Notes under the pieces: model-generated | The model's database searches: none | What the model was told of the DNA's origin: nothing | What the model saw: only the letters and a program-made list of their open reading frames with translations | Shown: positions 10,757 through 59,826 of the stretch, in pieces | Position numbering within the stretch: the first letter of the stretch is position 1 | Layout: each line of letters opens with the position of its first letter | Translations under genes and position numbers: made by a program | NCBI RefSeq assembly: GCF_037126465.1 | Contig: NC_088201.1 | Span: 139,440,376 to 139,504,375, forward strand | Reading direction: 5' to 3' | Length of the DNA: 64,000 bases | Source of the DNA: Ornithodoros turicata | Lineage: Eukaryota; Arthropoda; Arachnida; Ixodida; Argasidae

Positions 10757-10849
10757 ATTCAATGAAATCAGGTGTATTAACAGATTGTAAGAACGAGAAC
10801 GACGGAAAGAAGCCTGCCGTTGCCACCGCCTATAGTCGTACTGTCGGTG

Positions 10850-18757: not shown

Positions 18758-19613
18758 TATATATATCACTTTTGCCGAGGTCAAATCAATTGCAATATAG
18801 CATATGCTAAATGGCGCTCCTGAGGAGGGCATTAGCAAACTCCTAAGGCAATGCCTTAATTAATTTTCAATAATTAACTTTTTAATTATAAAAGCTATGA
18901 AGTTGTCCCAATGCGAACATCTGGTCCCTTCGGTCACCTGATACCGGAGCCGTTTTCAGAAGAAAAATCCGTTCGATAGATCGTCCGCAAAAAGTTCGTG
19001 AAGGAACACCTCTTTTTTAATTTTGTTCATTACACATTTTCGGCGACGTGTCTTTCCTTCACCCCAAATATGAGAGGGTGAAGGAGCACAGTGTCGCCTC
19101 ATGCGTCGAAGATAAGCTTTAATTTGCGGAAACAAAACAAAACAAATGTATCGCGTGACTGTGTCGGAACAGCCCTTATCTCGGGTTGCATTTTCTGTTT
19201 TCTTTTAACCTTTTTCCAGATGCAAGAGGCGATAGTGTGCTCTTTCCCCCTCTCACATTGGGGGCGAAGGAAAGACGCGCCTCTAGAGATACGCAATCTA
19301 CAAAATAAAGAAAAATTGTGTACCTTCACGAATTTTTTGTGGACGATCTATCGAACGAATTTTTGTTCGAAAGACGGCTCCGTTATCAGGTGACCGAAGG
19401 GACCACATGTTCTCATTGAGACAACTTTTGTAGCTTTTATAATTAAAAAGTTAATTATTGAAAGTTAATTAAGACATTGCCTTAGGAGTTTGCTAATGCC
19501 TTCCTAAGGAGTGGAATTCAAACATTTGCTATATTACAATCAATTTCATCTTGGAAAAAGTGATATATATATTTTAAAAAATATGTTCGCATTTGGCTGG
19601 GACACCCTGTGTA

Positions 19614-29116: not shown

Positions 29117-30149
29117 CACTTCAGTAGTAAGTACTGGACTCTCACAGTGCACAACGCTACAAGGCTTCTGGACGCCATTAATTAGCAATTAGAGCTAATT
29201 GGGACCCCCCACATTAATCAGCATCATCCAATGAGTCATCAAACTAATTGGGGAACGTCTAACTCGTGTCCAGACCACCCGAGCGTTGTGCACTACGAGA
29301 GTCCATAAAAAATAATAAAATAGATAGAGAGAGAGTGGAGAGAAGGAGTTTAGTTGAAGATCAACGACGCCATCTTGAAGAAAGCGGCCCGGAAAGGCCG
29401 CTGACCGTCGCTGGGCGACGGAGCACAGAAGCAGGTTGCAAAGCATCGCAGCTATGACCACCAGTTCCGGACATCCTGTGACGTCAGCTGTGACGTCATC
29501 ACGGCATGTCTGGGCAAGTTAGGACAGCTCTGGACATGCAAGGAGAAAAACACTCGTAATACAGAGGCTGGCAAAGCAAGAGTATGCAAACCATCAATAG
29601 CTAACAACAAAAAGAATTAGTTACACAACAAATGAGCCCACCAGAACAGGAGCGCAGAACCATGCGACTGCTCCATCCGAGAGGCAGGCAGAAACTGACT
29701 CGTAATGCTTTTTTGTCCTGTATAAAGCCCCGCAGCTGCACCCCCTAGCGATTACTTTTTCAACTAATCTCACAACAAAATTATTAAGAATCACGCCAGC
29801 GCTACTCCCGTTCCCAAGGCAGAAGAAGATAGAAAATGGCGGGGATGCCCGGACAACAGCAACCAACACCCGACGTGCACTGGCACGAAAATCGCAAACA
29901 AAGCGGGAACAAAGTTGGCGAAAGCATTAGTTACACAACAAAGCACCTCACCACAGCAGGAGCGCAGACCGATGTGACTGCTCTCCGTGACAGCCAGCCA
30001 GAAACTGATCGAGCGCGGGGAGCGCACGTCTGCTTTCCGCGACAGTCGGAGAGAAACTGACTGGGGCGCCGCTCCGCGGCCGCTACGCCTACGCGCACCT
30101 AGCGCCCTCTGGGGCGACCACCTCCGAGAGGCTAAGAGTGAAGAGCATT

Positions 30150-31220
30150 CCTGCGCCCCCTGCTGGCCGTTCTCATTGGTCGTGACGTCATCCTATTGTC
30201 TCAGAGCTACCCTGTTTTTTTCCACCAATGCTCCTTTGGTCAATCTACAATGAAGCCACAGTATGACGTCATCATGCACCTGCGTGGCTCAAGGACGCAT
30301 ACGCTCTAGACAGGGGACCTATTATTTATTGAATCACTATCCCATGATTATTTCCTTTATTCTTCTATAACGATTGAATAGGAAACTATTGCAGAAGAGC
30401 ACTATGCATGAAAGCTGATCGTAGGAATTCCAAAGCCTTACTAAATGAGACTTGCAAAAGAACAAAATATCCTAACACGTAACTCCATCAACGGCAAATA
30501 AGAGGACTAGGTACTCAACAAATCAACACAGAGTACGGGTAACCAGGAGCGCAGAACTCAGAGCAGCACTATCGTCAAGACAACAATGCTCCTTGTCAAA
30601 AAAGAAAACAAATACAAAACGTCAACACAGGAAAGCATGCATATGGGGGCATGTCAGAACACGTCAGGACAAAATGTACGACTGCTGGGCAACAAAGGAA
30701 AACAAACACTTGAACAGAGTGAAAAAGACACTCACCATCATTTTTCTCGTTCACAGCATTCCCTCATTGTAAATCCGCTCGTCACAAAATCCACCTGCAT
30801 CGTCGAACACCATTCACCAGTGACGAACCACACATCCCCACCCCATCAGAGGCAGACAGAACCCCACCGAAGCTACGCTCTTCCACTGACGGCCAACGCC
30901 AGGAGCAGTTTGTGCGTGTCCAGACCCATCAGTGTCCAAGAGAGAAGTGAATCCTTGCGCCCCCTGCAGGCCATTCTCATTGGTCGTGACGTCATCCTAT
31001 TGTTTCAGGGCTACCCTGTTTTTTCCACTAATGCTCCTCTAGACAAGGTCAACCTGAAACAATGGTCTCCTGGTATGACGTCATCATGCAGGTGCGTGGC
31101 TCAAGGACGCGTGCGCTCTAGACATGGGACCTGTTATTTATTGAATCACTATCCCAATATTATTTCCTTTATTCTACTATAATGATTGCATAGGGAACTA
31201 TTGCAGAAGAGCACCATAGA
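30150..31220 (+). repeat. Direct duplication of a ~260-bp block within the arm
   Basis: The block at 30150-30410 (GCGCCCCCTGCTGGCC ... GCAGAAGAGCAC) recurs at 30957-31220 with substitutions and an extra ~25 bases in the middle copy zone. Each copy carries two TGACGTCA sites (30183, 30264; 30987, 31076). The mirror copies are at about 38340-38590 and 39145-39390. Confidence 0.85.
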
Positions 31221-32504
31221 AAAGAGGCGATTGTAGCATTTCATTCCCAAAGTCTTACTGTACAGGGAAAAAATAATGGTTCAGCAAGACATGTCCATCC
31301 CAGCCGAGAGCCATGCAACTAAGTGAATAATGACGCTTTGTTCCTCCTGAATAAAGTCACACACCTGTCCCCCTCGCGGTAACTCTCTGAACCAAATGAA
31401 TTGCAAAATTATTAAGAATAGCTCTACTCCCATCCAAGGCAGCACTATCGTCAAGAATATTTCTTGTACAAAAAGAAAAAAGCTACATGTAGAAGGAAAG
31501 CATGTCAGAAAAAGCCCAGGCATGTCAGTGCATGTACAACAAGGGGGAAAAAGCGAAAAGAAACAAAGAAGGAAACCAGCATCAAACTGTTTCTAAGCAC
31601 ACACACTCCTCTTATTCAAAAACAGTGCTCACCATAAATCCGTCCAGGGCAATACACACCATTTTTCTATTGCTACACTTTTTTTCCAGTGATGGTCAAT
31701 GCGTTGCTACAGACTGCGTGACGTCATCACATCGTGTCTGAAGAAGAAGACAGCGGCAAAGACTCCTATCATTCATTGAATCGCAAGATTATTTCCTTTG
31801 TCCTACTCTTAATGACATTCATTCTCTCATTAAAATTCAACAAAAAAGCACCGTGCATATTAACGATTGTCACCCCAAAGGCTCATCATGGTCATTAGAA
31901 TTAGAGTACTACCACTGCTCCTTAAAATAATAAGTGAGACCACTCAACATCACCTCCAGGCTTATGTAATACATGACCCTTTCTATGCTTATACATTCGT
32001 TGTCTGAGGCTACACCTGCGAGCAAAAAGGCGCGAAAGCCGGGAGCAAAGTTCCATTCGCGCACGCCAAATCACAAGACAGAACGCCTTTACGGGAACAC
32101 GATGGCATTCGTATACTATATTAATGATTATTGCATTGCAGTTTAGAAAAACTACTACAAAACTATAATTTTAGGAGCCCATTAGAATTCCACTTTCTAT
32201 GGAGACTATAATTGCCCTATTGCTTGGATCGCTATTAATGAAGCGCTCCAATTTTTTCTCTCTTCCCATTTCAGCCTTGTCATGCAGGGAAGCAGACTCA
32301 CATCCAAAATAATTAATTTACACTGAGGGTACCGTGCTTCAGGAATTCCTATCCTGCGCTCAGATGCAAGCATTTCTTCACAGATACCTTTAACAGCTGA
32401 CTTCCTCAACATACCGAGCTCCTAACAACATCTAACAAACAATCAGAGAAACCCTCTTCTCAGCTGTACCATGCGACTGTCTTCCTCGTAAAATCGGTGA
32501 TCTG

Positions 32505-34350
32505 TGGAAGAGAGCAGCGAAAAATTGCGCGCACTTGTGCTTGCCTTCAAAAAACTGAAGCATATGCCAATAAACCAAGAAAAAGACACTCATGTCTGGT
32601 ATCTGATAGTGCCACATATACAGACGCATTGCCCTTGCGTAAAGAAAGCACAGGACAGGGATACACAAATTTCCTTAGGTGAGCAGGGAAAAGGCTTAAG
32701 ACCTCAGGTCACCACATATCGCCACGCGGCTAGCACAACATGACACCAACAACATACTAGCAGCGGGTAAGATTGCAACACTGCTAAACAAGTCCAGACA
32801 TGCCACGATGACGTCACAAATCATGAAAAAAAGCACACGCATGCACGCACAGAGGACAACGCATTAAACACACGAAGCGCTCAGGAATAATCGTAGCGTT
32901 ACCGCACATCGCTACGAAGCTCAACGTCTAACACAAGACGGCAGCAACAAGATATTAGCGAAGGGTAAAAATTGCAACACTACTGAACAAGTCTAGACAT
33001 GCGACATCGAATGCGAAAACACTGGTGATCGGGGAAAAGGCCTAAGCCTGCGGCGGATCATCATAGAGCATACACAACTTCATTTTTCTATTTTGCGTAA
33101 ACTAAACGCGGTCTGCTTGGAAAACGACGTACAAATTTTCTTATGGAACAGAGAAATATAGAAATTTGTACTCGGTGCTCAGATACCAGCATTTCTGCTC
33201 AAAAACCAGCAAAATTAAGCTCTGCTTACTTCGTCAAGATATCGAACACCCAACAAAATCAAACAAACAACCCCACTTCCACTGGTAGAACACTATTCAG
33301 CTTTTACGCAGGAGGCTTTCTTCTACATAAAAAGTAGAGAAAATAAGAAAAGAGCAGCGAAATATTACACGCACTTTTGCTCGCATAGCTATAAGAGAAA
33401 AAAATTAATAAAATAACGACGCACACGCTAATAAACTGTGACAAAGACACCCATTTCTGCTATCAGATAATTATTGCATAATGCTAAATACTCATTTGCA
33501 TTGGCCCTGCGTGAAGAAAGCACAGGACAGGGATACACAATCTACCTTAAGCGAGCACGGAAAGTCACTTCTACTCGAACAGCTTAATACCATAAAGTCT
33601 GAATTTTTGCAAAGCAAATAAAGCTTGAACAGCGCTACGAAGGTGACAGACACAAACAAACAAACAAACAAACAAACAAACAAACAAACAAACACACACA
33701 CACACACACACACTTCTTCGAGTCTGTATTATCTTTTAAAAAATAACGAAAGCACACATAAAAAAAATCAAATCGGCTAGGTAGCCTACCAGACGTTGTG
33801 CCTTAAAGTTGGCTGCACGCAATGCGCTGAAGCATGCTGTGAAGCCAACTTGTGGTTTTGCTGGATGCACATGAAGTCCGATTCCAATTGGAAATCGCGC
33901 TAAGGACGTGCCAAACGTGGAATTTTTGCAAAATTAATCCCAATACCTGGAATTCTATTCATTTTAGCGGGAATGCTGGCGCTTGCGCTCCATTATTTGA
34001 AATTTTCGAATATTCGAATTTCTCGATTATCAAATTTTCGAATACGAATAGGGTTCGAATATCAACAATATTCGAACAATATTCGAAATTTCGAATATTC
34101 GCACACCTCTAGTGAATACTGGCACTCAACGATATATAACAAAAAACAAACAAATTCCATTCTCATGAACTCTCCTCTGCCGAGCGGCTTTCTCCTGCTC
34201 TGCCTGGATGCTGACTTTTTCCCCCCTCACCTATATTCTGAGTAAAAGCAGTGACAGAAGAAAAGAACCGCGAAAAATTACACGCATTTGTGTCACAGGA
34301 CAGGGATACACAAATTTCCTTAAGTGAGCAGGGAAAAGGCTTAAGTCGTA
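32505..34350 (+). repeat. Three dispersed copies of a ~100-210 bp module
   Basis: The core CACAGGACAGGGATACACAA is found at 32649, 33521 and 34294, each preceded by an AGCAGCGAAA-like stretch and followed by a TTAAG/GAGCA stretch. The third copy lacks the middle. The module is mirrored in the right arm (for example near 35245, 36000 and 36870). Confidence 0.8.
33652..33712. repeat. (CAAA)n followed by (CA)n microsatellite
   Basis: About nine CAAA units run into about ten CA units. The mirror tract at 35823-35875 has TTTG units but lacks the long GT run, so this is the most changed part of the arms. Confidence 0.95.
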
Positions 34351-34454
34351 CCACTCAGGAATAATCGGAGAATCACCGCTTATCGCTACGCGGCTAGCGC
34401 TTGAACAGCGCTACGAACGTGACAGATACATACTAACAAACAAACAAACAACAG

Positions 34455-35097
34455 CAGGACCGGCGTCGGGCACTCATAAAATACCCTGCCCAAAACAAAG
34501 ACTTCGCCAGGTTCGCGAGGCAATTCCATTAAAAACGCTCGTCCTGTCCTACAGATAGCAATGCAAACGCGACTGCCCTTATTTTTTAAACCACTATTTC
34601 ACACAATAGTACATAAATGTATCACTCGTGCCACACGAAAAGGCAAACACTTACTTGTCAAGTGGGGTCCCAGCGCGTGCGCGCGCGCACACACACACAC
34701 TAACATTTTCACACTCACAAACACAAAGTCTATTTTCACAACCACATAAATCCATATTATTCCTCAGGTCAATAATTATCCTGCCATCGCCAAAAGACGG
34801 CACAGACATGTATGCTTACGCAAGACAATCGGTCCTCGTTCCGGATGTAATAGGATATCGCCACTCGGCCGGCGCGAACCAATAAAGAAAGAAAGGAATG
34901 CATGTTCGCTACGAAGAAAACGGTGCCGTGCTTCTACGCAGCGATCATTATACAGACGCGTAACTGTGAACATCATTCGCTACACACTGTAGCTCTCATC
35001 ATTTTTAAACCAAGCCGTGTTCATAGGTCTTCACTAAATAGGTGAGCCGATAATGACTCCAAATAAAATAAAATAAAGTAATCATTTACTTTATTTT
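34455..35097. other. Central spacer of the giant palindrome
   Basis: Unique sequence of about 645 bp between the arms. It has a GCGCGC(AC)n tract at 34677-34702 and an AATAAA-rich stretch near 35062-35090 next to the right arm. I see no gene in it. Confidence 0.7.
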
Positions 35098-38000
35098 TTG
35101 CTGTTTGTTTGTTGGTATGTATCTGTCACGTTCGTAGCGCTGTTCAAGCGCTAGCCGCGTAGCGATAAGCGGTGATTCTCCGATTATTCCTGAGTGGTAC
35201 GACTTAAGCCTTTTCCCTGCTCACTTAAGGAAATTTGTGTATCCCTGTCCTGTGACACAAATGCGTGTAATTTTTCGCGGTTCTTTTCTTCTGTCACTGC
35301 TTTTACTCAGAATGTAGGTGAGGGGGAAAAAGTCAGCATCCAGGTAGAGCAGGAGAAAGCCGCTCGGCAGAGGAGAGTTCATGAGAATAGAATTTGTTTG
35401 TTTTTTGTTATATATCGTTGAGTGTCAGTATTCACTAGAGGTGTGCGAATATTCGAAACTTCGAATATTATTGATATTCGAACCCTATTCGTATTCGAAA
35501 ATTTGATAATCGAGAAATTCGAATATTCGAAAATTTCGAATAATGAAGCACAAGCGCCAGCATTCCCGCTAAAATGAATAGAATTCCAGGTATTGGGATT
35601 AATTTTGCGAAAATTCCACGTTTGGCACGTCCTTAGCGCGATTTCCAATTGGAATCGGACTTCATGTGCATCCAGCAAAACCGCAAGTTGGCTTCACAGC
35701 ATGCTTCAGCGCATTGCGTGCAGCCAACTTTAAGGCACAACGTCTGGTAGGCTACCTAGCCGATTTGATTTTTTTATGTGTGCTTTCGTTATTTTTTAAA
35801 AGATAATACAGACTCGAAGAAGTGTTTGTTTGTTTGTTTGTTTGTTTGTTTGTTTGTTTGTTTGTTTGTTTGTTAGTATGTGTCTGTCACCTTCGTAGCG
35901 CTGTTCAAGCTTTATTTTCTTTGCAAAAATTCAGACTTTATGGTATTAAGCTGTTCGAGTAGAAGTGACTTTCCGTGCTCGCTTAAGGTAGATTGTGTAT
36001 CCCGGTCCTGTGCTTTCTTTCACGCAGGGCCAATGCAAATGAGTATTTAGCATTATGCAATAATTATCTGATAGCAGAAATGGGTGTCTTTGTCACAGTT
36101 TATTAGCGTGTGCGTCGTTATTTTATTTATTTTTTTCTCTTATAGCTATGCGAGCAAAAGTGCGTGTAATATTTCGCTGCTCTTTTCTTATTTTCTCTAC
36201 TTTTTATGTAGAAGAGAGCCCCCTGCGTAAAAGCTGAATAGTGTTCTACCAGTGGAAGTGGGGTTGTTTGTTTGATTTTGTTGGGTGTTCGATATCTTGA
36301 CGAAGTAAGCAGAGCTTAATTTTGCTGGTTTTTGAGCAGAAATGCTGGTATCTGAGCACGGAGTACAAATTTCTATATTTCTCTGTTCCCTAAGAAAAAT
36401 TGTACGTCGTTTTCCAAGCAGACCGCGTTTAGTTTATGCAAAATAGAAAAATGAAGTTGTGTATGCTCTATGATGATCCGCCGCAGGCTTAGGCCTTTTC
36501 CCCGATCACCAGTATTTTCGCATTCGATGTCGCATGTCTAGACTTGTTCAGTAGTGTTGCAATTTTTACCCTTCGCTAATATCTTGTTGCTGCCGTCTTG
36601 TGTTAGACGTTGAGCTTCGTAACGATGTGCGGTAACGCTATGATTATTCCTGAGCGCTCCGTGTGTTTAATGCGTTGTCCTCTGTGCGTGCATGCGTGTG
36701 CTTTTTTTCATGATTTGTGACGTCATCGTGGCATGTCTGGACTTGTTTAGCAGTGTTGCAATTTTACCTGCTGTTAGTATGTTGTTGGTGTCATGTTGTG
36801 CTAGCCGCGTGGCGATATGTGGTGACCTGAGGTCTTAAGCCTTTTCCCTCCTCACCTAAGGAAATTTGTGTATCCCTGTCCTGTGCTTTCTTTACGCAAG
36901 GGCAATGCGTCTGTGTATGTGGCACTATCAGATACCAGACATGAGTGTCTTTTTCTTGGTTTATTGGCATATGCTTCAGTTTTTTGAAGGCAAGCACAAG
37001 TGCGCGCAATTTTTCGCTGCTCTCTTCCTCAGATCACCGATTTTACGAGGAAGACAGTCGCATGGTACAGCTGAGAAGAGGGTTTCTCTGATTGTTTGTT
37101 AGATGTTGTTAGGAGCTCGGTATGTTGAGGAAGTCAGCTGTTAAAGGTATCCGTGAAGAAATGCTTGCATCTGAGCGCAGGATAGGAATTCCTGAAGCAC
37201 GGTACCCTCAGTGTAAATTAATTATTTTGGATGTGAGTCTGCTTCCCTGCATGACAAGGCTGAAATGGGAAGAGAGAAAAAATTGGAGCGCTTCATTAAT
37301 AGCGATCCAAGTAATAGGGCAATTATAGTCTCCATAGAAAGTGGAATTCTAATGGGCTCCTAAAATTATAGTTTTGTAGTAGTTTTTCTAAACTGCAATG
37401 CAATAATCATTAATATAGTATACGAATGCCATCGTGTTCCCGTAAAGGCGTTCTGTCTTGTGATTTGGCGTGCGCGAATGGAACTTTGCTCCCGGCTTTC
37501 GCGCCTTTTTGCTCGCAGGTGTAGCCTCAGACAACGAATGTATAAGCATAGAAAGGGTCATGTATTACATAAGCCTGGAGGTGATGTTGAGTGGTCTCAC
37601 TTATTATTTTAAGGAGCAGTGGTAGTACTCTAATTCTAATGACCATGATGAGCCTTTGGGGTGACAATCATTAATATGCACGGTGCTTTTTTGTTGAGTT
37701 TTAATGAGAGAATGAATGTCATTAAGAGTAGGACAAAGGAAATAATCTTGCGATTCAATGAATGATAGGAGTCTTTGCCGCTGTCTTCTTCTTCAGACAG
37801 GATGTGATGACGTCACGCACTCTGTAGCAACGCATTGACCATCACTGGAAAAAAAGTGTAGCAATAGAAAAATGGTGTGTATTGCCCTGGACGGATTTAT
37901 GGTGAGCACTGTTTTTGAATAAGAGGAGTGTGTGTGCTTAGAAACAGTTTGATGCTGGTTTCCTTCTTTGTTTCTTTTCGCTTTTTCCCCCTTGTTGTAC

Positions 38001-40339
38001 ATGCACTGACATGCCTGGGCTTTTTCTGACATGCTTTCCTTCTACATGTAGCTTTTTTCTTTTTGTACAAGAAATATTCTTGACGATAGTGCTGCCTTGG
38101 ATGGGAGTAGAGCTATTCTTAATAATTTTGCGATTCATTTAGTTCAGAGAGTTACCGCGAGGGGGACAGGTGTGTGACTTTATTCAGGAGGAACAAAGCG
38201 TCATTATTCACTTAGTTGCATGGCTCTCGGCTGGGATGGACATGTCTTGCTGAACCATTATTTTTTCCCTGTACAGTAAGACTTTGGGAATGAAATGCTA
38301 CAATCACCTCTTTTCTATGGTGCTCTTCTGCAATAGTTCCCTATGCAATCATTATAGTAGAATAAAGGAAATAATCTTGGGATAGTGATTCAATAAATAA
38401 CAGGTCCCATGTCTAGAGCGCACGCGTCCTTGAGCCATGCACCTGCATGATGACGTCATACCAGGAGACCATTGTTTCAGGTTGACCTTGTCTAGAGGAG
38501 CATTAGTGGAAAAAAACAGGGTAGCCCTGAAACAATAGGATGACGTCACGACCAATGAGAATGGCCTGCAGGGGGCGCAAGGATTCACTTCTCTCTTGGA
38601 CACTGATGGGTCTGGACACGCACAAACTGCTCCTGGCGTTGGCCGTCAGTGGAAGAGCGTAGCTTCGGTGGGGTTCTGTCTGCCTCTGATGGGGTGGGGA
38701 TGTGTGGTTCGTCACTGGTGAATGGTGTTCGACGATGTAGGTGGATTTTGTGACGAGCGGATTTACAATGAGGGAATGCTGTGAACGAGAAAAATGATGG
38801 TGAGTGTCTTTTTTACTCTGTTCAAGTGTTTGTTTTCCTCTGTTGCCCAGCAGTCGTACATTTTGTCCTGACGTGTTCTGACATGCCCCCATATGCATGC
38901 TTTCCTGTGTTGACGTTTTGTATTTGTTTTCTTTTTTGACAAGGAACATTGTTGTCTTGACGATAGTGCTGCTCTGAGTTCTGAGCTCCTGGTTACCCGT
39001 ACTCTGTGTTGATTTGTTGAGTACCTAGTCCTCTTATTTGCCGTTGATGGAGTTACGTGTTAGGATATTTTGTTCTTTTGCAAGTCTCATTTAGTAAGGC
39101 TTTGGAATTCCTACGATCAGCTTTCATGCATAGTGCTCTTCTGCAATAGTTTCCTATTCAATCGTTATAGAAGAATAAAGGAAATAATCATGGGATAGTG
39201 ATTCAATAAATAATAGGTCCCCTGTCTAGAGCGTACGCGTCCTTGAGCCACGCAGGTGCATGATGACGTCATACTGTGGCTTCATTGTAGATTGACCAAA
39301 GGAGCATTAGTGGAAAAAAACAGGGTAGCTCTGAGACAATAGGATGACGTCACGACCAATGAGAACGGCCAGCAGGGGGCGCAGGAATGCTCTTCACTCT
39401 TAGCCTCTCGGAGGTGGTCGCCCCAGAGGGCGCTAGGAGCGCGTATGCGTAGCGGCCCCAGAGCGGCGCCCCAGTCAGTTTCTCTCCGACTGTCGCGGAA
39501 AGCAGACGTGCGCTCCCCGCGCTCGATCAGTTTCTGGCTGGCTGTCATGGAGAGCAGTCGCATCGGTCTGCGCTCCTGCTGTGGTGAGGTGCTTTGTTGT
39601 GTAACTAATGCTTTCGCCAACTTTGTTCCCGCTTTGTTTGCGATTTTCGTGCCAGTGCACGTCGGGTGTTGGTTGCTGTTGTCCGGGCATCCCCGCCATT
39701 TTCTATCTTCTTCTGCCTTGGGAACGGGAGTAGCGCTGGCGTGATTCTTAATAATTTTGTTGTGAGATTAGTTGAGAAAGTAATCGCTAGGGGGTGCAGC
39801 TGCGGGGCTTTATACAGGACAAAAAAGCATTATGAGTCAGTTTCTGCCTGCCTCTCGGATGGAGCAGTCGCATGGTTCTGCGCTCCTGTTCTGGTGGGCT
39901 CATTTGTTGTGTAACTAATTCTTTTTCTTGTTAGCTATTGATGGTTTGCATACTCTTGCTTTGCCAGCCTCTGTATTACGAGTGTTTTTCTCCTTGCATG
40001 TCCAGAGCTGTCCTAACTTGCCCAGACATGCCGTGATGATGTCACAGCTGACGTCACAGGATGTCCGGAACTGGTGGTCATAGCTGCGATGCTTTGCAAC
40101 CTGCTTCTGTGCTCCGTCGCCCAGCGACGGTCAGCGGCCTTTCCGGGCCGCTTTCTTCAAGATGGCGTCGTTGATCTTCAACTAAACTCCTTCTCTCCAC
40201 TCTCTCTCTATCTATTTTTTTATTTTTTATGGACTCTCGTAGTGCACAACGCTCGGGTGGTCTGGACACGAGTTAGACGTTCCCCAATTAGTTTGATGAC
40301 TCATTGGATGATGCTGATTAATGTGGGGGGTCCCAATTA

Positions 40340-41276
40340 CTGACTAGAGTAGCTTGATGGGCTTGTTGGTACATGACTCGGAGAACAAGGAGCAGTCTAA
40401 ACAAGGACAACGACACAAGAAGACACACAAACAGAGGCTCCACTATCAACAAGTTTTTACTGAACAACACAAGCACATTTATAACCAATGGTAAGGACGG
40501 GAAAAGGGGGCAAAACGGAAGACACGTGGGGCCATATACACGAGGAACAATCAGATCCAACTACTCACTTCCAGCCTTCAGTCTGCATTCCAAGAACCCA
40601 AACTCTTCCCTAGTTAGCGATATTGACGGCTCACTGACACATTTATCAGACCCATACTTCATTATCAAAAAGGCCTCGAAAATTTCTCTTTCATTCTTGG
40701 AGTATCAGGTATCACTAGAGTGCGAGAAGAAGCATAGGTGTCCTCTTGTGGAATGTAAAAGGTCTATTGTTTATGAAATCCCACTTTCGTGTGATAAGGT
40801 TTATGTGGGCCAATCTGGCCGGTGCCTAAATGAACGCTTAATGGAGCATAAGAATTGTGTAAATAAGACGGGTGGGGGTACCTTGCATGAATATGTCAGG
40901 GTCTGCGGTTGCGTTCCGGAGTTTCCGAGAACAAAGATTAGAGGACGATTTAACTCCAAGAATGAAAGAGAAATTTTCGAGGCCTTTTTGATAATGAAGT
41001 ATGGGTCTGATAAATGTGTCAGTGAGCCGTCAATATCGCTAACTAGGGAAGAGTTTGGGTTCTTGGAATGCAGACTGAAGGCTGGAAGTGAGTAGTTAGA
41101 TCTGATTGTTCCTCGTGTATATGGCCCCACGTGTCTTCCGTTTTGCCCCCTTTTCCCGTCCTTACCATTGGTTATAAATGTGCTTGTGTTGTTCAGTAAA
41201 AACTTGTTGATAGTGGAGCCTCTGTTTGTGTGTCTTCTTGTGTCGTTGTCCTTGTTTAGACTGCTCCTTGTTCTCC
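40340..41276 (+). mobile_element. Penelope-like element with inverted 3' end, inserted in the right arm
   Basis: The 12-bp duplication GGGTCCCAATTA (40328-40339 and 41277-41288) bounds the insertion; the left arm of the palindrome shows the empty site at about 29200-29212. The first part, 40381-40700, is the reverse complement of the last part, 40961-41276, so the element consists of an inverted copy of its own 3' end followed by a sense 3' end. Terminal rearrangements and partial inverted copies are typical of PLE insertions. Confidence 0.88.
40700..41095 (+). pseudogene. PLE GIY-YIG endonuclease fragment
   Basis: The open stretch encodes the linker end and nuclease of a PLE: IVYEIPLSCDKVYVGQSGR with the YVG of GIY-YIG, an ERLMEHK motif downstream (catalytic R and H), and FNSKNEREIFEAF with the expected glutamate. 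The frame is open to the stop at 41093-41095, but upstream of about 40700 it reads into the inverted copy, so no reverse transcriptase is attached. It is a truncated domain, distinct in sequence from the PLE at 20230. Confidence 0.85.
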
Positions 41277-41367
41277 GGGTCCCAATTAGCTCTAATTGCT
41301 AATTAATGGCGTCCAGAATCCTTGTAGCGTTGTGCACTGTGAGAGTCCAGTACTTACTACTCACTTC

Positions 41368-43240: not shown

Positions 43241-46218
43241 AAAGACGTTATAAAGAAATGACGTTCTACACCAAGTGGCAATCTGTGTCATATATTCACT
43301 CTTTGTTTAAATCGTTCAAGAATCGCATGTGCAGAGCAAAAGAACTCAGCCAAGTAGCTTTCGGTAGATCTGAGGATTTCTCATTAAGATATCGTTGATA
43401 TGCATCTGAAAGAAAAAAGAAAAGAAAGCAAGAACGTTGCAAGAATGTCAATTGTGACATTAAGATGGCACATATGCGCTTGTTTGGAAAAGTTATTTAG
43501 GCAAAGCATGTGTGTGCAGAAATTGGATGAAGGAGCACAAATTTTAGAATACAGGCACGGTGCAATGAAAATCATTATCGGGACCACAACGCCGCTACTG
43601 TGATGCTCACGCTCAGTTCAGCCGGGGTATTAATTTTACTTGCAGGTAATGGTGACTACTGTGCGGGCTGTTTTAGCGATGATAAGGCATATCGCTGTGA
43701 AGAGATCAGTATTGCGAGTCATATCCCTATTGAAAAAACCCATATCGAATAAATACGGGTCCCATATATATGGCATTATTGAACATGGGGTTATGTGTTA
43801 TATGGACATATGAGTTATATAGACCATACGGGGTCCTCATGTGGCCCGTATGACCCATACGAGAATCTCCATATCCAACAATCCCGTATAAACGCCCCAT
43901 ACAATTCTCATGTGACCCATATACCCACATGATTGTGTGAGCCACAACGGAATTATATGAGACCGCTTATACGGGGCGCAGAGAGCATAATGTTATGTAC
44001 CACGTTGAAGAAGCCGCTGGTCGGGTAACGGTCGTATGACGATACGGAGTGAAGGTTATACAGGGTGCATCCAGTGACACATAGTGGGGAACCAAAATCC
44101 ACCTACACACAAAGCACCAAAGGGGAGGATACATTGTGAAAGCAGTACAGATCTTAGAAAAATGTAGGTATGATAAGCTGAACATATCTTACGCGAACAT
44201 AGTGGCAAAAGAACCAGGAAACTTTTCTCTGTTATCCAGTTTATTTGGCTTGTTACATTCAAGGGCACGGTTGTAAAAGCTTGCACTGCCATGAAGCAGA
44301 CATTGGAGTTGCATGGCTGAAGTGCACACCCTACCTGTTTTGCAGGAAACACAACTCAGTAAAAATCTTTGCAATGACCTGTAGCTTAACTTACTTTGTC
44401 TTATAAGATCTCAGCGACGAGTGTTCATTTCCTACGTCGGGAGTACGACAGCCCATTTGTCTTGTGCACAGAAACAAATCTGTCAAAAGCGTCTGAAATT
44501 CCCCGTTTCCCCGAAATTCCCCGTAAAAAAAAGATTACCCGTTTGTAACAGGCCAGTGAAGCATCACATGTGACAATTTCCCCCGATGTTAAGTGACGAT
44601 AAGAGTTAACGACTACGGCAACAACCACACTGAGTTCAGCATAAGGTAACAGGACTCAAGAGGGTAGCAAGCACACTGAGTGCATAAAGTAATAGGAACC
44701 CACATGCTAGGAATGTTACCAAGCAAACCGTGCAGGAATAATGGCACAGCAGCCTCTCAACTAACCTTCCATTCACGAAATCCAACAGCTTCTGGTCGTA
44801 TCTTCCAAGGCGTACAAACAGAGAAACATGTCCAGACGTCACTAGCAAGGCACAAACACACAGTCAGAACAGTCCGAGCCACCAATGCCACGCCGAAACA
44901 CCCAGAACAGGAACGACGACATCACGCGACCCCTCACCTCCGGTACTCCAACGTCGACTGAGACCAGTGGCGGATGCAGAGTGTGGCGTTGGGGGCGCCA
45001 CAGTCGCGGCGCTCTTCGTGCTATATCAAGAGAATGGAAATCGGCGCGAGCACGACAACAATGCTATCGGAAAGAGGACGTTTTCCCCGTCAAAACAAGA
45101 CCTCATTCACCTTCCTACGCCAAGAAACACCCAATATCGAAAAGAATGCCCCGCGCCCCATGTATAAGGAAGCCGCCGTTACCACGTGATCCTAACTAGA
45201 GAACGGAGAGAGATAAAAAGGTGTCGCAAGTTCCTACACCTTCCCGGCTTTGAGTACGTGTGTCCATCAGAGGGAGGTTCTGATCTGCCGTGGGGTTCGA
45301 ACCCAAACACTGAGACAAATGTCGTCGAACGGGGGTCGGCGTCAGGAATTTTCGAAATGACGCCCTAACAGCTGGAAATTGACGGGTGGCCCGAATAGGA
45401 AACTTGTAGTGCAGGGTACGGAGCATGCACACACAGAATTTCGGGTAAATTGGGCTTTAGGTAAGTTACTTACTGCACTGAACAGCGGGAAGCGTTTCGG
45501 GGCGTCGTCACCCAGACACGTTGGCGTCGAAAAACTACAAAGCCAATATCTTATCTTGGAGAACGAAACTTTGCTTGCCTACAGGACAAACTCGATTGAA
45601 AAGAGAGCGTCGAGACCTTCAAAACAATGTTACACACGACTATGTAGCTGCAACTGGGGCGGTTTTAGGAAAATGCGGCCGAACGTCACATGCATTGTGA
45701 GGAGTGCAAACACGGACACCGGTAACTGGAGAACCGTTAAAGTTCCAGAGCTGCGGTCAATTTTGTCACGTTTGTTACGTCATGTAGAGTAGGTTACAAA
45801 AAATGAACATCGTCGGACGCGAGCTTCCTTCCGAAAAAGGACCCCAAAGTTTTCAAAAAGAGCGTCGCAAACGCGTCTTCACCCACAATTTCCGAACCGC
45901 TAAAGACCGGACCGCGGTGTGATTTGGCCGATCATAGAACTATTCGAGACCTATTTGGATGCAAATTTTGTGTGAATCCGGCAAACGCCGCGGGAGTGAC
46001 GGCGCTCCGAATGTGTCGTATATGTGCTGATGGAAGCCAAATATTTCCACATTTGTCGGCTACCGTTAGGATTTCTCAGAAACTTCGGGCGTGTTTGTGA
46101 AGGGGGAGGAATGCGGAATCTGTCACAACAAATAGCGTCTTGATAGGACCATTTTAGGCTTCTATATTAGACGCACAACCCCATCAAGCGACCACCGTCA
46201 CTCGATAGAGACTCACTA

Positions 46219-46792
46219 AACTCACTTAACTTGGAATGAACACATTAATCACATCGTGGCCAATGCTTCTCGCTCCTTGGGCTTTGTCAGACGCACCCTA
46301 AGATCGGCACCTGTCCATCTCAAGCTTCTAACTTTCACCACTCTGGTACGAAGCAAGCTTGAATACGCATCCGCAATATGGGACCCTCCTCAAAACTATC
46401 TCTGTGATGCAATCGAAGCCATTCAAAATCGAGCTGCCCGCTTCATTGTCAACGATTACTCTTTCACTACCTCTGTTTCCGCGTTAAAACTAAGTCTCAA
46501 CCTCGAGCCGCTCGAACATCGTCGTCGCTTCGCCAAGTTAACCCTCTACCATAGATTTTTTTTCACCTTGCCTGCTCGACAATCACCCATCACACGCTCG
46601 AGTGTCATTTTTCCTCGCTTTGATCACACTAACAAGGTTACTCGGTTCCTCTGTATTACTAACGCGTTCTCCAAATCGTTTTTTTGCACAACTACCATTG
46701 AGTGGAACAACCTCCCATCATCAATCGCTACCATTGACGACCATACAGTTTTCCGTAGCTCCCTCTCTCACTTTCTTCATCTTCAATACTAG
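46219..46792 (+). CDS. L2/CR1-like ORF2 C-terminal fragment (partial)
   Basis: This open frame, without a natural start, encodes the region after the reverse-transcriptase palm. It includes LGFVRRTLR, then LVRSKLEYASAIWDPP (the conserved LEYAS/VW zone), IQNRAARFIVNDY, LEHRRRFAKLTLYHRFF and IEWNNLPSSI near the end, stopping at 46792. This order is typical of the L2/CR1/Rex group. The frame is clean, so the insertion is fairly recent, but without endonuclease and palm it cannot act alone. Confidence 0.85.
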
Positions 46793-47014
46793 TGTTCGTT
46801 CTGTTGTATTGCTGAGTTTATCGCTTTGTATACTTACTTGTATTGTTCTTATCCTGTTATTCCAAGATGTTGTTGTTATTTTGTTTCCTTATTTCTGTTT
46901 TCTGTTTATTTCTGTTATTACTGTTTCCATTCTCAATGTTCCATGATGTGTTCCAATATAATGTTCCCACCCCCCATGTAATGTCCTCCGGACCCTTGGG
47001 GTTTTTTGAAATAA
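46219..47014 (+). mobile_element. L2/CR1-like LINE, 5'-truncated
   Basis: A 796-bp insertion flanked by the 14-bp duplication ATAGAGACTCACTA (46205-46218 and 47015-47028). It ends in TTTTTTGAAATAA, a TGAAATAA-type 3' end as in L2-group LINEs. It interrupts CAT copy 2; copy A shows the uninterrupted site. Confidence 0.92.
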
Positions 47015-47861
47015 ATAGAGACTCACTACTGCCATGAACCACAAGGGTCCCCAAGAGTCTTGAGCAGGCTACCCGTGTACTGAGGCTGAAGAATCGATAC
47101 TTTGAGTACCGGATAAGGTTAGAAAGCAGGACAAATCTATGTTAGGGTATAACTAGTTGTATTCTCAGCAAAAAGTGACATCATCCAACCTGACCTAACC
47201 TAGTCATGTGTGTCAACTCGCGTGTCGTTCGGAGCGTGTATCCTATTTCTGCATCATTTCCGTCCGTCCATTACTATTTAGTCCCTAACACAGGAACGCA
47301 GCAGTGAGTTTATTTATCTGCACGTTCGTCCAGGGCAGTGACACACATTTGGTTCGCACAATCCATTTTTATAAGGTAAGTGTGTGATGCAATTAAGTGG
47401 CCCATTTCAAAAACTAGTTTGGCATAATTGTAATCATAACTATGTGGCAGAATAAACGTTTCGAATGATGTGTCATGTGTGATTCCTGTCCCCCATACTA
47501 TCCTAATGTGCATCATACCGCCCCATATGTGTACTATTGCTGTCACATACGAAGTCGTATGGAACCCATATTGCTGCCACATCACTTCATACGGGTGAAA
47601 GATATGCGATATACGGTCCCATATCACTTCATACGAGGCCCACATAAGTATCATATTGACTCCATATGACTCCGTACGGTACCCATAAGAATGCCATATT
47701 GCCTTCATATGACTTCATAGGCGGCCCATATGTATTAATATAGGACCCATACGAATCTGTACGGGAACCATACAAACTGATATAGGACCCATATGAGTCT
47801 CATACGGGATTTTTCAATAGGGATAGCATTTCAATAGGAGAAGAACGAACGCTGCTTTGAT

Positions 47862-48050
47862 TTTTATGCTCTTTTTATGGACCTGACACAATCTGATTTA
47901 TGCACCTTCCGTAGTCTGCACCTTCTGTTCCAAACGTAAGACCGTAAACACATCTGCACGGTGTTTACGGTCTTGCGTTTGCTACAGAATGTGCAGAATA
48001 CGGATGGTGCCGAAGGCAGAATGGCTTAGGTGCGCAAAAAGAGCCTAAAA
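47862..48050. repeat. 189-bp palindromic MITE-like element with near-perfect hairpin
   Basis: The inner arms CGTAAGACCGTAAACAC and GTGTTTACGGTCTTGCG (47934-47976) form a 17-bp stem with one mismatch around an 8-base loop. The outer parts also pair (GCACCTTCCGTAGTCTGC with GCACCATCCGTATTCTGC; GCTCTTTTT at both ends). It lies between two CAT copies and codes for nothing. Confidence 0.85.
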
Positions 48051-48269
48051 CTTGTCTACATACAAAGATGCATAGTAGTCATGCATCCAGAATACTCGTG
48101 CGTTTTGGGTCACTATACAAACGTGAGAGATTGTCTAAGAGTATAAAGCACAATTTGACTTGCACAGCAAGAAAGTTGTTAAAAAGATGCAATACAAATA
48201 TAAAATCAAGCAAGTCCCAATTGCAGCCAGCCTCCGGAATCGATGTTGACCTCCAGCCGGGAGCCATAT

Positions 48270-51200
48270 CCCTATTGAAAAAACCCATATCGAATAAATA
48301 CGGGTCCCATATATATGGCATTATTGAACATGGGGTTATGTGTCATATGGACATATGAGTTATATAGACCATACGGGGTCCTCATATGGCCCGTATGAGC
48401 CGTACGAGAATCTCCATATCCAACAATCCCGCATAAATGTGTCCCATACAATTATCATGTGACCCATAGACCCACGTGATTGTGTGAGCCACAACGGAAT
48501 TATGAGACCGCTTATACGGGGCGCAGAGAGCATAAGGTTATGTACCACGTTGAAGAAGCCGCTGGTCGGGTAACGGTCGTATGACGATACGGAGTGAAGG
48601 TTATACAGGGTTGACACATAGTGGGGAACCAAAATCCACCTACACACAAAGCACCAAAGGGGAGGATACATTGTGAAAGCAGTACTGATCTTAGAAAAAT
48701 GTAGGTATGATAAGCTGGGTATCTTTACGCGAACATAGTGGCAAAGGAACCAGGAAACTTTTCTCTGTTATCCAGTTTATTTGGCTTGTTACATTCAAGG
48801 GCACGGTTGTAAAAGCTTGCACTGCCATGAAGCAGACATTGGAGTTGCATGGGTGAAGTGCACACCCTACCTGTTTCGCAGGAAACACAACTCAGTAAAA
48901 ATCTCTGCAATGACCTGTAGCTTAACTTACTTTGTCTTTTAAGATCTCAGCGACGTGTGTGTTCATTTCCTACGTCGGGAGTGCGACAGCCCATTTGTCT
49001 TGTGCACAGAAACAAATCTGTCAAAAGCGTCTGAAATTCAAAGATTCCACATTTGTAACAGGCCAATGAAGCATCACATGTGACATCTTCACCCGATGTT
49101 AAGTGACGATATCGGTTAACGACTACGGCAACGACCAATATGAGTTCAGCATAAGGTAACAGGACTCAAGAGGGTAGCAATCACACTGAGTGCATAAAGT
49201 AATAGGAACCCACACGCTAGGAATGTTACCAAGCAAACCGTGCATGAATCATGACACAGCAGCCTCAACACTAACCTTCCATTCACGAAATCCAACGGCT
49301 TCTGGTCGTATCTCGCAAGGCGTACAAACAGAGAAACATGTCCAGACATCACTAGCAAGGCACAAACACACAGTCAGAACAGTCCGAGCCACCAACGCCA
49401 CGCCGAAACACCCAGAACAGGAACGACGACAACACGCGACCGCTCTCCTCCGGTGCTCAACGTCTCCTGAGAGCAGTGGCGGATGCAGAGTGTGGCATCG
49501 GGGGCGCCACTGTCGCGGCGCTCTTCGTGCTATATCAAGAGAACTGAAATCGGCGCGAGCACGACAACAATGCTATCGGAAAGAGGACGTTTTCCCCGTC
49601 AAAACGAGACCACATTCACCTTCCTACGCCAAGAAACACCAAATATCGAAAAAAATGCCCCGCGCCCCATGTATAAGGAAACCGCCGTTGCCACGGGATC
49701 CTAACTACAGAACGGAGAGAGATACAAAGGTGTCGCAAGTTCCTACACCTTGCCCGCTTTGAGCACGTGTGCCCGTCAGAGGGAGGTTCGGATCTGCCGT
49801 GGGGTTCGAACCCACACACTGAGACAAATGTCGCAGAACGGGGGTCGGCGTCAGGAATTTTCGGAATGACGCCCTAACAGCTGGAAATTGACGGGTGGTC
49901 CGAATCGGAAACTTGTAGTGCAGGGCACGGAGCATTTTGGGTAAATCGGGCGTTAGGTAAGCAAGTTACAGCACTGAACAGCGGGAAGCGTTTCGGGGCG
50001 TCGTCACCCGGCACGCCGGCGTCGAAAAACTACAAAGCCAATATCTTATCTTGGAGAACGAAACTTTTCGGGCCTTTAGGACAAACTCGATTAAAAATAG
50101 CACGTCGAGACCCTCAAAACTACGTTACACACGACTATGTAGCTGTAACTGGGGCGGTTTTAGGAAAATGCGGCCGCCCGTCACATGTATCGTGAGGAAT
50201 GCAAACACGCAAACCGGGAACTGGAGAACCGCTAAAGTTACAGAGCTGCGCTCAATTTTGTCACGTTTGGTACGTCATGTAGAGCATGTTACAAAAAAAA
50301 TGAACATCGTCGGACACGAGCTTCCTTCCTAAAAAGGACCCCAAAGTTTGCAAAAAGAGCGTCGCGAACGCGTCTTCACCCACAGTTTCCGAACCGCTAC
50401 AGACCGGACCGCGGTGTGATTTGGCCGATCATAGAACTATTCGAGACCTATTTGGACGCAAATTTTGGCGTGAACTCGACAAACGCCGCGGGAGTGACGG
50501 CGCTCCGAATTTGTCGTATATGTGCTGATGGATGATGAGCAGGCTATCCGTGTACTCCAGATAAATACCTGAAGAATCGATACTTTGAGTACGGGAACAG
50601 GTTAGAAAGCAGGACAAATCCATGTTAGGGTATAACTAATTGTATTCTCAGCAAAAAGCGACACCATCCAACCTGACCTAACCTATAGTCATGTGTGTCA
50701 ACTCACGTGTCGTTCGGAGCGTGTATCCTATTTCCTAGCGTGTATCCGTCCGTCCGTTACTATTTAGTTCCTAACACAGGAACGTAGCAATGAGTTTATT
50801 TATCTGCACGTTCCTCCACGGCAGTGACACACATTTGGTCCGCACAATCCATTTTTATAAGGTAAGTTCGTGACGCAATTAAGTGGCCCATTTCAAAAAC
50901 TAGTTTGGCATAATTGTACCCATAACTATGTGGCAGAATCAACGTTTCGAATTATGTGTCATGTGTGATTCCTGTCCCCCATACTATCCTAATGTGCATC
51001 ATACGGCCCCATATGTGTACCATTGCTGTCACATACGAAGTCGTATGGAACCCATATTGCTGCCACATCACTTCATATGGGTGAAAGATATGTGATATAC
51101 GGTCCCATATCACTTCATACGAGGCCCACATAAGTATCATATTGACTCCATATGACTCCGTACGGTACCCATAAGAATGCCATATTGTCTACATATGACT

Positions 51201-51308
51201 TCATACGCGGTCCATATGTAGTAATATAGGACACATACGAATCTGTACGGGAACCATACAAACTGATATAGGAACCGTATGAGTCTCATACGGGATTTTT
51301 CAATAGGG
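48270..51308 (+). mobile_element. CAT-family DNA transposon, copy 3
   Basis: Same ends and direction as copy 2, which it follows after about 450 bp. It is flanked by TAT on both sides. It lacks the LINE and also lacks a segment present in copies A and 2 between the phrases GCTGATGGA and GAGCAGGCTA (junction at about 50530). The longest frame (49190-49762, 190 codons) is poorly kept in the other copies, so I do not call it a gene. Confidence 0.85.
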
Positions 51309-57529: not shown

Positions 57530-58154
57530 GTTCATACCCAGTAAACCACAGACGTCTATTAGACATACCAGAAAGATCCAAACATCTAAGACATTTGGGA
57601 TGGCTAGTAGACATCCGGATATATCCAGCTAACGTGGAATGGATGTACTATGGATCGTCGTTAGCTCATCCATAACTGTATAAATGGATATCCTCTGGAT
57701 GTAACAGCTGAACATTTGTCACATCCGGTGGACGTGCCTGTGGGGCATTGCGACGTCTAATATACGTCCAATCGATGTTCCTATCGGATTAACATACGAT
57801 AATATAGACGTATGTTTACGAAACGTTGTTTCGACTATCAATTCAATAGTAATTTTTACGTATAGCGCTAGAAGAAAGCGAATCTATCTTGCGAGAACGT
57901 GAGAAATTGGAGAACGAGTAAAAGCAAGTGTTTCCATTTGTTCGCGTCCTGCTCTCTGCAAAGTACACTCTTAACTCGGTACCCTTTAGTAAAGGGTAAA
58001 AAATCGCAATATTTTACCCTCTATTTCAGAAGCTACCAGGTACCCTCTGAGCAGTACCTTTTATAAAAGTTACAAGGAAACCCACTAATTAGAGGTTACG
58101 GCCTTGAATCCAGCACCTGCCCGTAAAGGTTACGCCAACGTGCGGCTTTTTATA

Positions 58155-58365
58155 CAGGATGTTTATTTTTATTCGCAACAGAGTAGCGCTCATTTGGCAG
58201 GTGGGTTATGTGAATTTTTGCTAATTAATCGATCCGTAGTTACAAACACATGCGTCAGGAAATGTCGGAAATGTTTGTAACTACGGATGGGTTAATTTGC
58301 GAAAATTAACACAACCCACCTGTCAAATGAGCGCTGCTATGATGCGAATAAAAACAAACACCCTG
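58155..58365. mobile_element. 211-bp palindromic MITE
   Basis: CAGGATGTTTATTTTTATTCGCA pairs with CAGGGTGTTTGTTTTTATTCGCA read from the right, and pairing continues inward through GAGCGCT..TTTG, CAGGTGGGTT and GTAGTTACAAACA to a loop near 58235-58270. The CAGGGTGTTT end links it to the other CAGGGTGT foldbacks. The right flank lacks a clear TA. Confidence 0.87.
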
Positions 58366-59673
58366 TGCGTGGGACATGGACAGACCTTTACAGAACACAC
58401 CAAGGTACCAAAATGAACCAGCAGAAAAGGAGATCTTTAACATATGTATATTACAAAAACAGAAGTCTGTCGAGAGGTGACACACTGTGCACAAGGGCGA
58501 TTCTGATGTGAGCAGAAACCATGGTCGCTTTACCATGTACGTGGAAAAAAGAACTATCTTCTAAGTGAGAAGCAATGCATAAAAGTGCGAGGAAGCCAGC
58601 GAGTCAAAACAACTGACCTATGTTTGCTAAGCTGAACAGACCCAACGAAATGCAGAATTGCAGCAGAAAAAAATTTATTCCACATTCGTGTTGCAGAGGC
58701 GAGCGCAAATGGCAATACAGTATTACATAAAACGCACACAACTTTGAGGAATATGAGTGTACAGTAACGCAGGAGACACTACCTTACTGCGTTATCAGCG
58801 TTGGAGGCGCTCTGGGACGAGTTTGTGAGGTACTGCATTGCGCTGGTGACGGTATGTGAACCTGCATGTGGGATCCTGGGAACAAAAGTTTGGGCAATGG
58901 GAGTAACATTTACGGAACCATTCAAATCCGTACAAAGCACAAGCTATAAAGCAGCATAAATGGGGGAAGGCGTTCACTCCGCGATTGAGTCTTATAATAT
59001 CGTAAGAATACAACAAGTAGGAAGCTGCGAAATATATATCTCGATGCATATATCCGCAGCTCGCGAAATGCACGCCGGTTAGAGCTGAAAAGTAGCAAGC
59101 GTTAGTGGCGTTCATATGCAGGACCGCAAAACGCTTGCCATAATCACAACAAACATGCGCTAAGAGCTCTTGCTATCAAAATAACGCACGCACCTACCAC
59201 AAAATGTACACTTACCCAGTGTATGAAGTGTGTGAATTAGGGCTGCGCTGGTGACGTTCGCTTTCGGTTATATATTCTTTGCAATCTTCGCACTCGCTAC
59301 ACTTTCCCCTGGGAACACCGAAAATCTCCTTGTTTGCAAGCGACATCTAGCTTTTCCGTTGTTCCTGACGATACTATGATAAACGCGAGGAAAACCACTG
59401 ATTAAAACAGATTACACTTGTTAACGGACGGACGACGAGCGTTAAGCGTTTCAAGGGAACCGCTCTCAGTGTGGACAGACCTAGACCACGCTCGGCTACG
59501 CAGCGAAATCGGAAATCTTGGTGGTTGCGGCATTGACAATGGTTTTCCACCCTTTAGAAAGAAACATACTATCAGTATTCCAGACTGTGAACTTATAATC
59601 TGTGTTCATACAGCATTGATAACATGTAGTCGACGTATAGATGACGCTGAAACAGATAAAAAATAACAGCGTA

Positions 59674-59826
59674 CCCAAGCAGCACAATGTACTGAAAGTC
59701 GAGTGCAATAGGGGTGGACGGTATGTGTCTTATCAATGTTCTTTGGTTTCACGAATCTGTTCAAGGCCTTTCATCTACCCGACCACCCCTATTGCACTCG
59801 ACTTTCAGTGCATTTTGCTGCTTGGG
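59674..59826. mobile_element. 153-bp palindromic MITE with CCCAAGCAGCA ends
   Basis: TA flanks (59672-59673, 59827-59828) enclose arms of about 47 bases: CCCAAGCAGCACAATGTACT pairs with CCCAAGCAGCAAAATGCACT from the right, then GAAAGTCGAGTGCAATAGG is perfect on both sides. The loop is about 55 bases. Confidence 0.9.

Follow-up and report, generated by a model that had tools for sequence, protein, structure and literature searches.

A long gene-free palindrome with Polinton-type ends in the tick Ornithodoros turicata

Results

Architecture of the palindrome

In a 64,000-nucleotide stretch of the genome of the tick Ornithodoros turicata (assembly GCF_037126465.1, contig NC_088201.1, positions 139,440,376 to 139,504,375 of the forward strand; hereafter the window), positions 29123-41361 form a long palindrome that is very probably a non-autonomous, gene-free Polinton (Maverick) composed of two greatly expanded Polinton terminal inverted repeats (TIRs) joined head to head. 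The palindrome is placed with the Polintons by its ends, its target-site duplication, and a co-resident coding partner; because the coding content that defines a Polinton was not found in it, it is filed as a non-autonomous derivative and not as a Polinton.

Comparison of the window with itself by BLAST reveals inverted arms at 29196-34446 and 35102-40339 (98.4% identity across 5,253 bp) and outer pieces at 29123-29207 and 41277-41361, also inverted and 98.8% identical. Alignment of the arms with MAFFT gives 98.55% identity over 5,323 aligned positions, the 77 mismatches comprising 50 transitions and 27 transversions. Both methods thus confirm the near-perfect palindrome described in the first-pass annotation. 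Its arm length of more than 5 kb also stands; its figure of about 99% identity becomes about 98.5%, with a nested 949-bp insertion in the right arm, and its 645-bp spacer measures 655 bp. As the insertion is later than the arm that holds it, the element would have been ~11.3 kb long beforehand. The 15-bp end AGTAGTAAGTACTGG is found at 29123-29137 (+) and 41347-41361 (-) and at no third site in the window with up to two mismatches allowed, and two matches occurred in none of 100 shuffles. The 6-bp duplication CACTTC borders both ends, and the flanks are non-palindromic; the earlier view of like ends within CACTTC as one mobile unit is borne out. The features, in window coordinates, are as follows.

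29117..29122, + strand: left 6-bp target-site duplication CACTTC, exact (compare 15 of 16 copies, below)
29123..29310, + strand: left Polinton-type terminus, an AGTAGT end motif followed by a subterminal inverted repeat, assigned by terminal identity to Polinton ends
29123..34446, + strand: left palindrome arm, colinear over its first ~990 bp with a Polinton TIR (colinearity measured on copy C5), the remainder non-coding with diverged internal repeats
34447..35101, no strand: single-copy spacer of 655 bp (BLAST and MAFFT)
35102..41361, - strand: right palindrome arm, broken by 40340-41288 (BLAST and MAFFT)
40340..41288, no strand: later nested insertion, comprising the body 40340-41276 and one copy of a 12-bp duplication (BLAST and MAFFT)
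41277..41361, - strand: right Polinton-type terminus, outer 85 bp, 98.8% identical to the left end and matching 83/85 bp of the end of an integrase-bearing Polinton at C4:64860231
41362..41367, + strand: right 6-bp target-site duplication CACTTC, exact

In the coordinates of the C5 arm, the left arm of the window copy reaches ~5945 and the right arm begins at ~5309 at the spacer.

A family of palindromes with 6-bp duplications

The terminal 188 bp of the palindrome have at least 41 matches in the genome (1.07 Gb, 379 contigs), many as facing pairs; this count is a lower bound, since the best 40 of 2,493 candidates were scored. The 41 matches that scored best against the end of the window copy yield, with single ends left uncounted, 16 paired copies: that of the window and 15 of like build on other contigs or elsewhere on C1. 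Because they were drawn from the best matches to the window's end, the 16 are biased toward its close relatives. All 16 have the inverted-repeat build. Twelve copies, the window's included, were read through, and all are inverted repeats with arms of ~3-6 kb; C119 is the exception, having lost most of one arm, which leaves a 4.8-kb element with an inverted repeat of 549 bp, so that the terminal inverted repeats span kilobases or, in C119, hundreds of base pairs. Three more copies, sampled inside, have left and right inner stretches that are 98.3-99.8% identical, and C10 has inner-arm matches in both orientations. The length is 9.1-14.0 kb in 13/16 copies; C2 (18.9 kb) and C9b (24.0 kb) contain long stretches unrelated to the arm, and the long frames of C9b resemble, as named by eye, a nested long terminal repeat (LTR) element, a mariner, and a long interspersed nuclear element (LINE).

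Exact 6-bp duplications flank 15 of the 16 copies, all with both ends read; the exception is C4a, one end of which is also altered. The ends are exactly AGTAGT in 30 of 32 cases, the others being AATAGT (C4a) and AGTAGA (C119). Across the 15 sites of the target profile, which omits C4a, the preference is weak and symmetric, with no fixed duplication sequence. The search for further copies with 6-bp duplications that the first-pass annotation had proposed thus returned a positive answer. Its attribution of termini starting with AG and a 6-bp duplication to Polintons also holds, but the published signature is more specific: in PMC8097293, the Polinton/Maverick end motif is (AGT)2//(ACT)2 or (AG)3//(CT)3, and vertebrate Mavericks combine 5'-(AGT)2//(ACT)2-3' ends with 6-bp duplications.

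One further pair of ends, C5:45773488 and C5:46008030, was excluded from the duplication counts. These ends lie 234 kb apart with outer flanks that are reverse complements of each other, as a fold in the assembly or an inverted duplication of very large size would produce.

Misassembly is a common risk with long palindromes, and hairpin reads or collapsed haplotypes could in principle have produced such a structure, as may have happened elsewhere at the C5 pair. The structure recurs at 16 separate places, however, and is thus not a single misassembly; 15 of the copies have their own exact duplication, the arms of the ten copies profiled have diverged by 0.2-2.6% per copy, and the window copy has non-palindromic flanks and an insertion confined to one arm. 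An assembly artefact is accordingly scarcely credible.

Coding Polintons with the same ends

At least 91 matches to DNA_pol_B_2 are present in the genome, many in frames of ~1,160-1,280 aa, indicating that it holds many Polintons. In a first Polinton group, the five copies compared end in ...GACTACT where their flanks diverge; the one copy with both ends read has ends beginning AGTAGTCAGAAA and the duplication gtgtcg. This group shares AGTAGT with the palindrome, to which the right-hand 10 kb of one copy had no significant match.

A second group is more closely related at its ends. The 21-bp palindrome end occurs, with up to three mismatches, at 263 forward and 274 reverse places, versus 11 and 4 for a reversed control, and among the first 100 matches listed many are in pairs 15-16.5 kb apart. 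One such element, P4 (C4:27018608-27034065; 15.5 kb), is flanked by the duplication tacttg and has TIRs 1,255 bp long that are 99.76% identical. Its sequence was covered save 1,000 bp mid-element, with interior stretches of 8.5 and 3.4 kb. It encodes a PolB (PF03175, DNA_pol_B_2, 3.6e-18) and an rve integrase (PF00665, 1.4e-9) whose chromodomain-like tail scores below its cut-off. An adenovirus-type protease is also present (PF00770, Peptidase_C5, 2.8e-4, narrowly short of the curated cut-off), as are an ATPase-like protein for which all matches are weak (Pox_A32, below cut-off) and a 439-aa frame that has no Pfam match and a 34% counterpart in the first group.

The first 23 bp of P4 and the palindrome are identical, 167/189 aligned terminal positions are the same (88.4%), and a subterminal inverted repeat lies in the end region common to the palindrome and the Polintons. 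Farther in, positions 1-1083 of the P4 TIR are colinear with positions 1-990 of the C5 arm at 62% overall (E 9e-55), and the 8.5- and 3.4-kb interior stretches have no match to the palindrome arm at 1e-3. A still closer end is found at C4:64860231 (L098), where a palindrome-type end is accompanied by a stop-free integrase frame finishing 2.7 kb away. This end matches the left terminus of the window copy at 179/189 positions (94.7%), and the remainder of its TIR is 81-83% identical to that of P4; palindrome-type ends therefore occur on integrase-bearing Polintons. These two elements answer in the affirmative the question, posed in the first-pass annotation, of whether full Polintons share the palindrome's ends. 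The match of the ends to coding Polintons extends across ~190-270 bp, far beyond chance, and the better conservation of the terminal 190 bp relative to the rest of the TIR is the trace expected from shared recognition in trans.

Nine other P4-like pairs were sampled, all with exact 6-bp duplications; over 140 bp, their 18 ends match P4 at 95-99% and the palindrome at 87-91%, each of them lying closer to P4. The interiors of three were covered: that of C6 at two 500-bp places, with identities to P4 of 99.4 and 100%, and those of C4:67.9 Mb and C1:140.8 Mb by integrase matches. One further pair has aagatt on both sides. Two of these pairs, of 7-8 kb, are presumably shortened. Exact 6-bp duplications were observed in all 12 Polinton-type pairs sampled. 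For the P4 integrase, at least 111 matches were scored among 6,240 candidates, counted irrespective of element ends; all are at least 98% identical, and 110 lack an internal stop. Together, the PolB and integrase matches amount to a large Polinton expansion in this tick, apparently a recent one.

An element of another superfamily could have acquired AGTAGT by chance and grown its arms by internal duplication, as a foldback or Galileo-like cut-and-paste transposon might. PMC4168063 describes Galileo copies that are palindromic over nearly their whole length, reach 9 kb, and have TIRs that are expanded and repetitive, and diverged internal repeats are present in the palindrome arms too. The same source gives Galileo duplications of 7-8 bp with the consensus GTATTAC, whereas those of the palindrome are 6 bp and not fixed in sequence. 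Since the ends are shared with coding Polintons over a length far above chance, this origin is largely refuted, and we regard it as very improbable.

Absence of detected genes from the arms

The longest stop-to-stop frame of the left arm is 223 aa, which falls within the range of 100 Markov shuffles (average longest frame 133, maximum 252); a homologue search with this frame was empty, and the open reading frame inside it, 30586-31182, has no Pfam match. Two frames are open in several copies, and both show substitutions at all three codon positions, as in neutral DNA: 36 synonymous, 80 nonsynonymous, and 5 stop changes in the first and 81, 223, and 4 in the second, where neutrality predicts ~28-29, 68, and 3-4%, respectively. 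When 11 Polinton proteins were compared with the 12 copies read through, no tblastn match was obtained at E 0.01, and polymerase, integrase, protease, ATPase-like, and capsid-like genes all went undetected in these copies. In the same search, every one of the 11 proteins found its counterpart in control stretches, and counterparts from the other Polinton group were recovered at ~33-36% identity. The neutral codon changes, the lack of a homologue for the longest frame, and the lack of Polinton remnants in 12 copies led us to reject a coding capacity of the arms, in agreement with the first-pass annotation. A search of phage records gave no match, a 21-bp end of the palindrome was not found in IMG/VR viral contigs, and scans of the window against Rfam (gathering threshold) and with a bacterial-code tRNA search returned nothing.

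The arms do have compositional features. Between 29000 and 40000 of the window, A exceeds T and C exceeds G reading inward from each end, with the sign switching at the palindrome centre; the P4 TIR is A-rich like the arms. The CRE-type palindrome TGACGTCA occurs eight times in the left arm (29123-34446; expected 0.03), at arm positions 357, 369, 1061, 1142, 1865, 1954, 2597, and 3687; a single occurrence lies in 30.6 kb of flanks. The arms of three further copies contain three to seven occurrences, several of them similarly placed; in P4 the motif is absent from the TIR and occurs five times within the 8.5-kb interior stretch, four of these ~100 bp apart. The cluster is possibly a promoter or enhancer array. 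CTCF-like motifs (longer motif form) number one or two per arm.

The palindrome might instead be a symmetric defective product in which one end of a full Polinton was duplicated head to head. The arm does begin with a Polinton TIR, and symmetric end-duplicated genomes are known for adenoviruses; a literature search on palindromic defective genomes of the adenovirus type yielded nothing to the point. Inward of its TIR-like first kilobase, the arm matches nothing in the two P4 interior stretches and retains no Polinton protein remnant, so that such a scheme would require either a source lineage not yet seen or later rebuilding of the arm. We consider this origin unlikely.

Likeness of the two arms within a copy

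A tree of 22 arms, built on a 0.97-kb stretch (matches of >850 bp), joins the left and right arms of a copy as sisters in 9 of the 10 copies having both, with C8 unresolved. The tree of a second stretch, with 17 arms (matches of >600 bp), does so in 5 of 6 copies, weakly for C8, with C1b unresolved. Copy-specific changes are likewise present in both arms: C3a has an identical ~660-bp tandem duplication in each, the window copy has a stretch ~50 bp shorter in each, and C8 has the same 1.9-kb insert in each (99.1-99.4% identical), of which just the first 52-69 bp were matched outside C8 among the other family loci and the window element. As arms are usually mutual closest relatives and share such insertions, this pattern shows that one arm of a copy is copied onto the other, which keeps the pair alike; how this occurs is suggested below.

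Pooled over ten copies, arm-arm divergence is 0.7-2.0% per 500-bp bin and reaches 12.3% in the last, central bin alone (pieces of <150 bp or <94% identity excluded). A gradient of divergence along the arm, as seen in the window copy, was rejected because it is absent across the ten copies. The position of the centre varies between copies, as could result from either fold-back events or deletions at the centre.

Two copies stand out as mosaic in their relationships. The left and right ends of C9b (C9:4112146-4136194) are nearest to different copies, and C4a (C4:37608379-37618617) groups differently in the two arm stretches, pointing to recombination between elements.

Proposed mechanism

From the ends, the duplications, and the stop-free partner frames, it appears that the rve integrase of P4-type Polintons would insert the palindrome in trans. 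Protein-primed PolB would start its replication at the AGTAGT ends; the Maverick end repeats are thought, according to PMC8097293, to permit the jumping-back step of such replication. The first-pass annotation had proposed a Polinton-derived satellite served by both enzymes in trans, a reading that the shared ends and the 6-bp duplications support. The arms would most likely be equalised by mismatch repair of a giant hairpin formed from the displaced single strand, by fold-back copying in replication, or by chromosomal gene conversion. Between fold-back or hairpin repair during replication on the one hand and chromosomal gene conversion on the other, we see the case as about evenly balanced.

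A Polinton-derived, Polinton-inserted palindrome could also have had its arms equalised solely by chromosomal gene conversion after insertion, with no fold-back replication at all. Any long inverted repeat is open to gene conversion, the copies seem to recombine (the shifting grouping of C4a and the disparate ends of C9b), and the mismatches of C4a and C8 are somewhat patchy. The even divergence along the arm is better suited to one copying event followed by point mutation, and conversion is still compatible with it. We give this account a little less than an even chance.

Polintons are thought to be virus-like and to replicate by protein-primed synthesis. It is conceivable, if rather doubtful, that the palindrome is a germline satellite replicon of such a virus-like element, 9-14 kb long, replicated extrachromosomally from its AGTAGT ends by the Polinton protein-primed polymerase, passing each cycle through a giant hairpin that equalises the arms, and perhaps packaged in Polinton capsids. 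If true, extrachromosomal replication and perhaps capsid packaging would explain why the element has not shrunk to the size of a miniature inverted-repeat transposable element (MITE).

Several observations weigh against a non-autonomous Polinton with arms copied in this way. No movement of the palindrome has been seen. The arms beyond ~1 kb have no known relative, which leaves most of the arm unexplained, and internal deletion, the usual origin of non-autonomous elements, might have left some Polinton interior, none of which was detected (11 proteins, 12 copies). Strong support is absent for 3/9 sister pairs in the tree of the 0.97-kb stretch and for 1/5 in that of the second. Over the terminal 600 bp, identity within a copy exceeds that to the best other copy in 8/16 and equals it in 2; in the remaining 6, including the window copy, it is lower. 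This stretch is conserved and resolves poorly. The arms of C9b are mismatched (94.1%). Finally, 6-bp duplications are also made by IS3EU elements, though with TA..TA ends (PMC10045372).

Other repeats in the window

The nested insertion appears as a 949-bp gap in the alignment of the right arm with the left, and its 12-bp duplication, read from the sequence, is GGGTCCCAATTA. Its body, 40340-41276, consists of its own 329-bp inverted repeats (99.4%) enclosing an open frame with four protein-search matches, the best to an Amblyomma americanum protein (47%) and one other carrying PF00078; a Pfam search of the frame gave no match. We take this body to be, probably, a Penelope-like (GIY-YIG) fragment; mirrored insertion of such an element is its probable origin.

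Another repeat family has long inverted and direct copies at 1-2556, 8254-10758, 43716-47824, and 48261-51308, of which 1-1851 and 8863-10714 are inverted and 99.5% identical. Smaller imperfect palindromes at 18758-19571, 58154-58366, 47862-48050, and 59672-59828 (0.2-0.8 kb, 73-83%) are probably MITE-like elements of other families.

Comparison with known systems

The palindrome most closely resembles the Polinton/Maverick P4 family, with which it shares AGTAGT/ACTACT ends, 6-bp duplications, a terminal 190 bp that is 88% (P4) or 95% (integrase-bearing copy) identical, and colinearity of the TIR with the arm's first kilobase. It differs in that the P4 TIR is ~1.1-1.3 kb long, whereas the arms are ~3-6 kb and make up nearly the whole palindrome, and in that it has no detected Polinton genes. 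Among 5.39 million open papers, none contains any of six phrases for non-autonomous Polintons or Mavericks; Repbase and most subscription papers, which lay outside the search, may hold an earlier description.

In overall form the palindrome recalls Galileo (P superfamily) of D. willistoni, for which PMC4168063 describes transposase-less elements that are almost all two long inverted repeats, with TIRs expanded by internal duplications; one such copy is 9,021 bp long with TIRs of 4,246 and 4,680 bp. The two are set apart by their duplications, 7-8 bp with a target consensus in Galileo versus 6 bp with a weak preference here. MITEs and ordinary non-autonomous DNA transposons are also gene-free and have inverted repeats, and their movement is presumed to occur in trans. 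A MITE measures a few hundred base pairs, in contrast to the kilobase lengths found here (13/16 copies of 9.1-14.0 kb). The first-pass annotation had placed the palindrome far beyond the usual size of MITEs and Foldback elements; this is correct for MITEs, while the 9,021-bp near-palindromic Galileo copy shows that elements of almost this size are known. IS3EU and GingerRoot share the 6-bp duplication and an integrase-like transposase, but PMC10045372 gives their ends as TA..TA (sometimes TG..CA for GingerRoot), as opposed to AG..CT.

Parasites of Polintons seem to have been little described. A gene-free element that keeps the ends only, beside more than 100 near-identical stop-free integrase frames, points to the sequences sufficient in cis, and the palindrome makes trans-mobilisation, end recognition, and fold-back replication testable.

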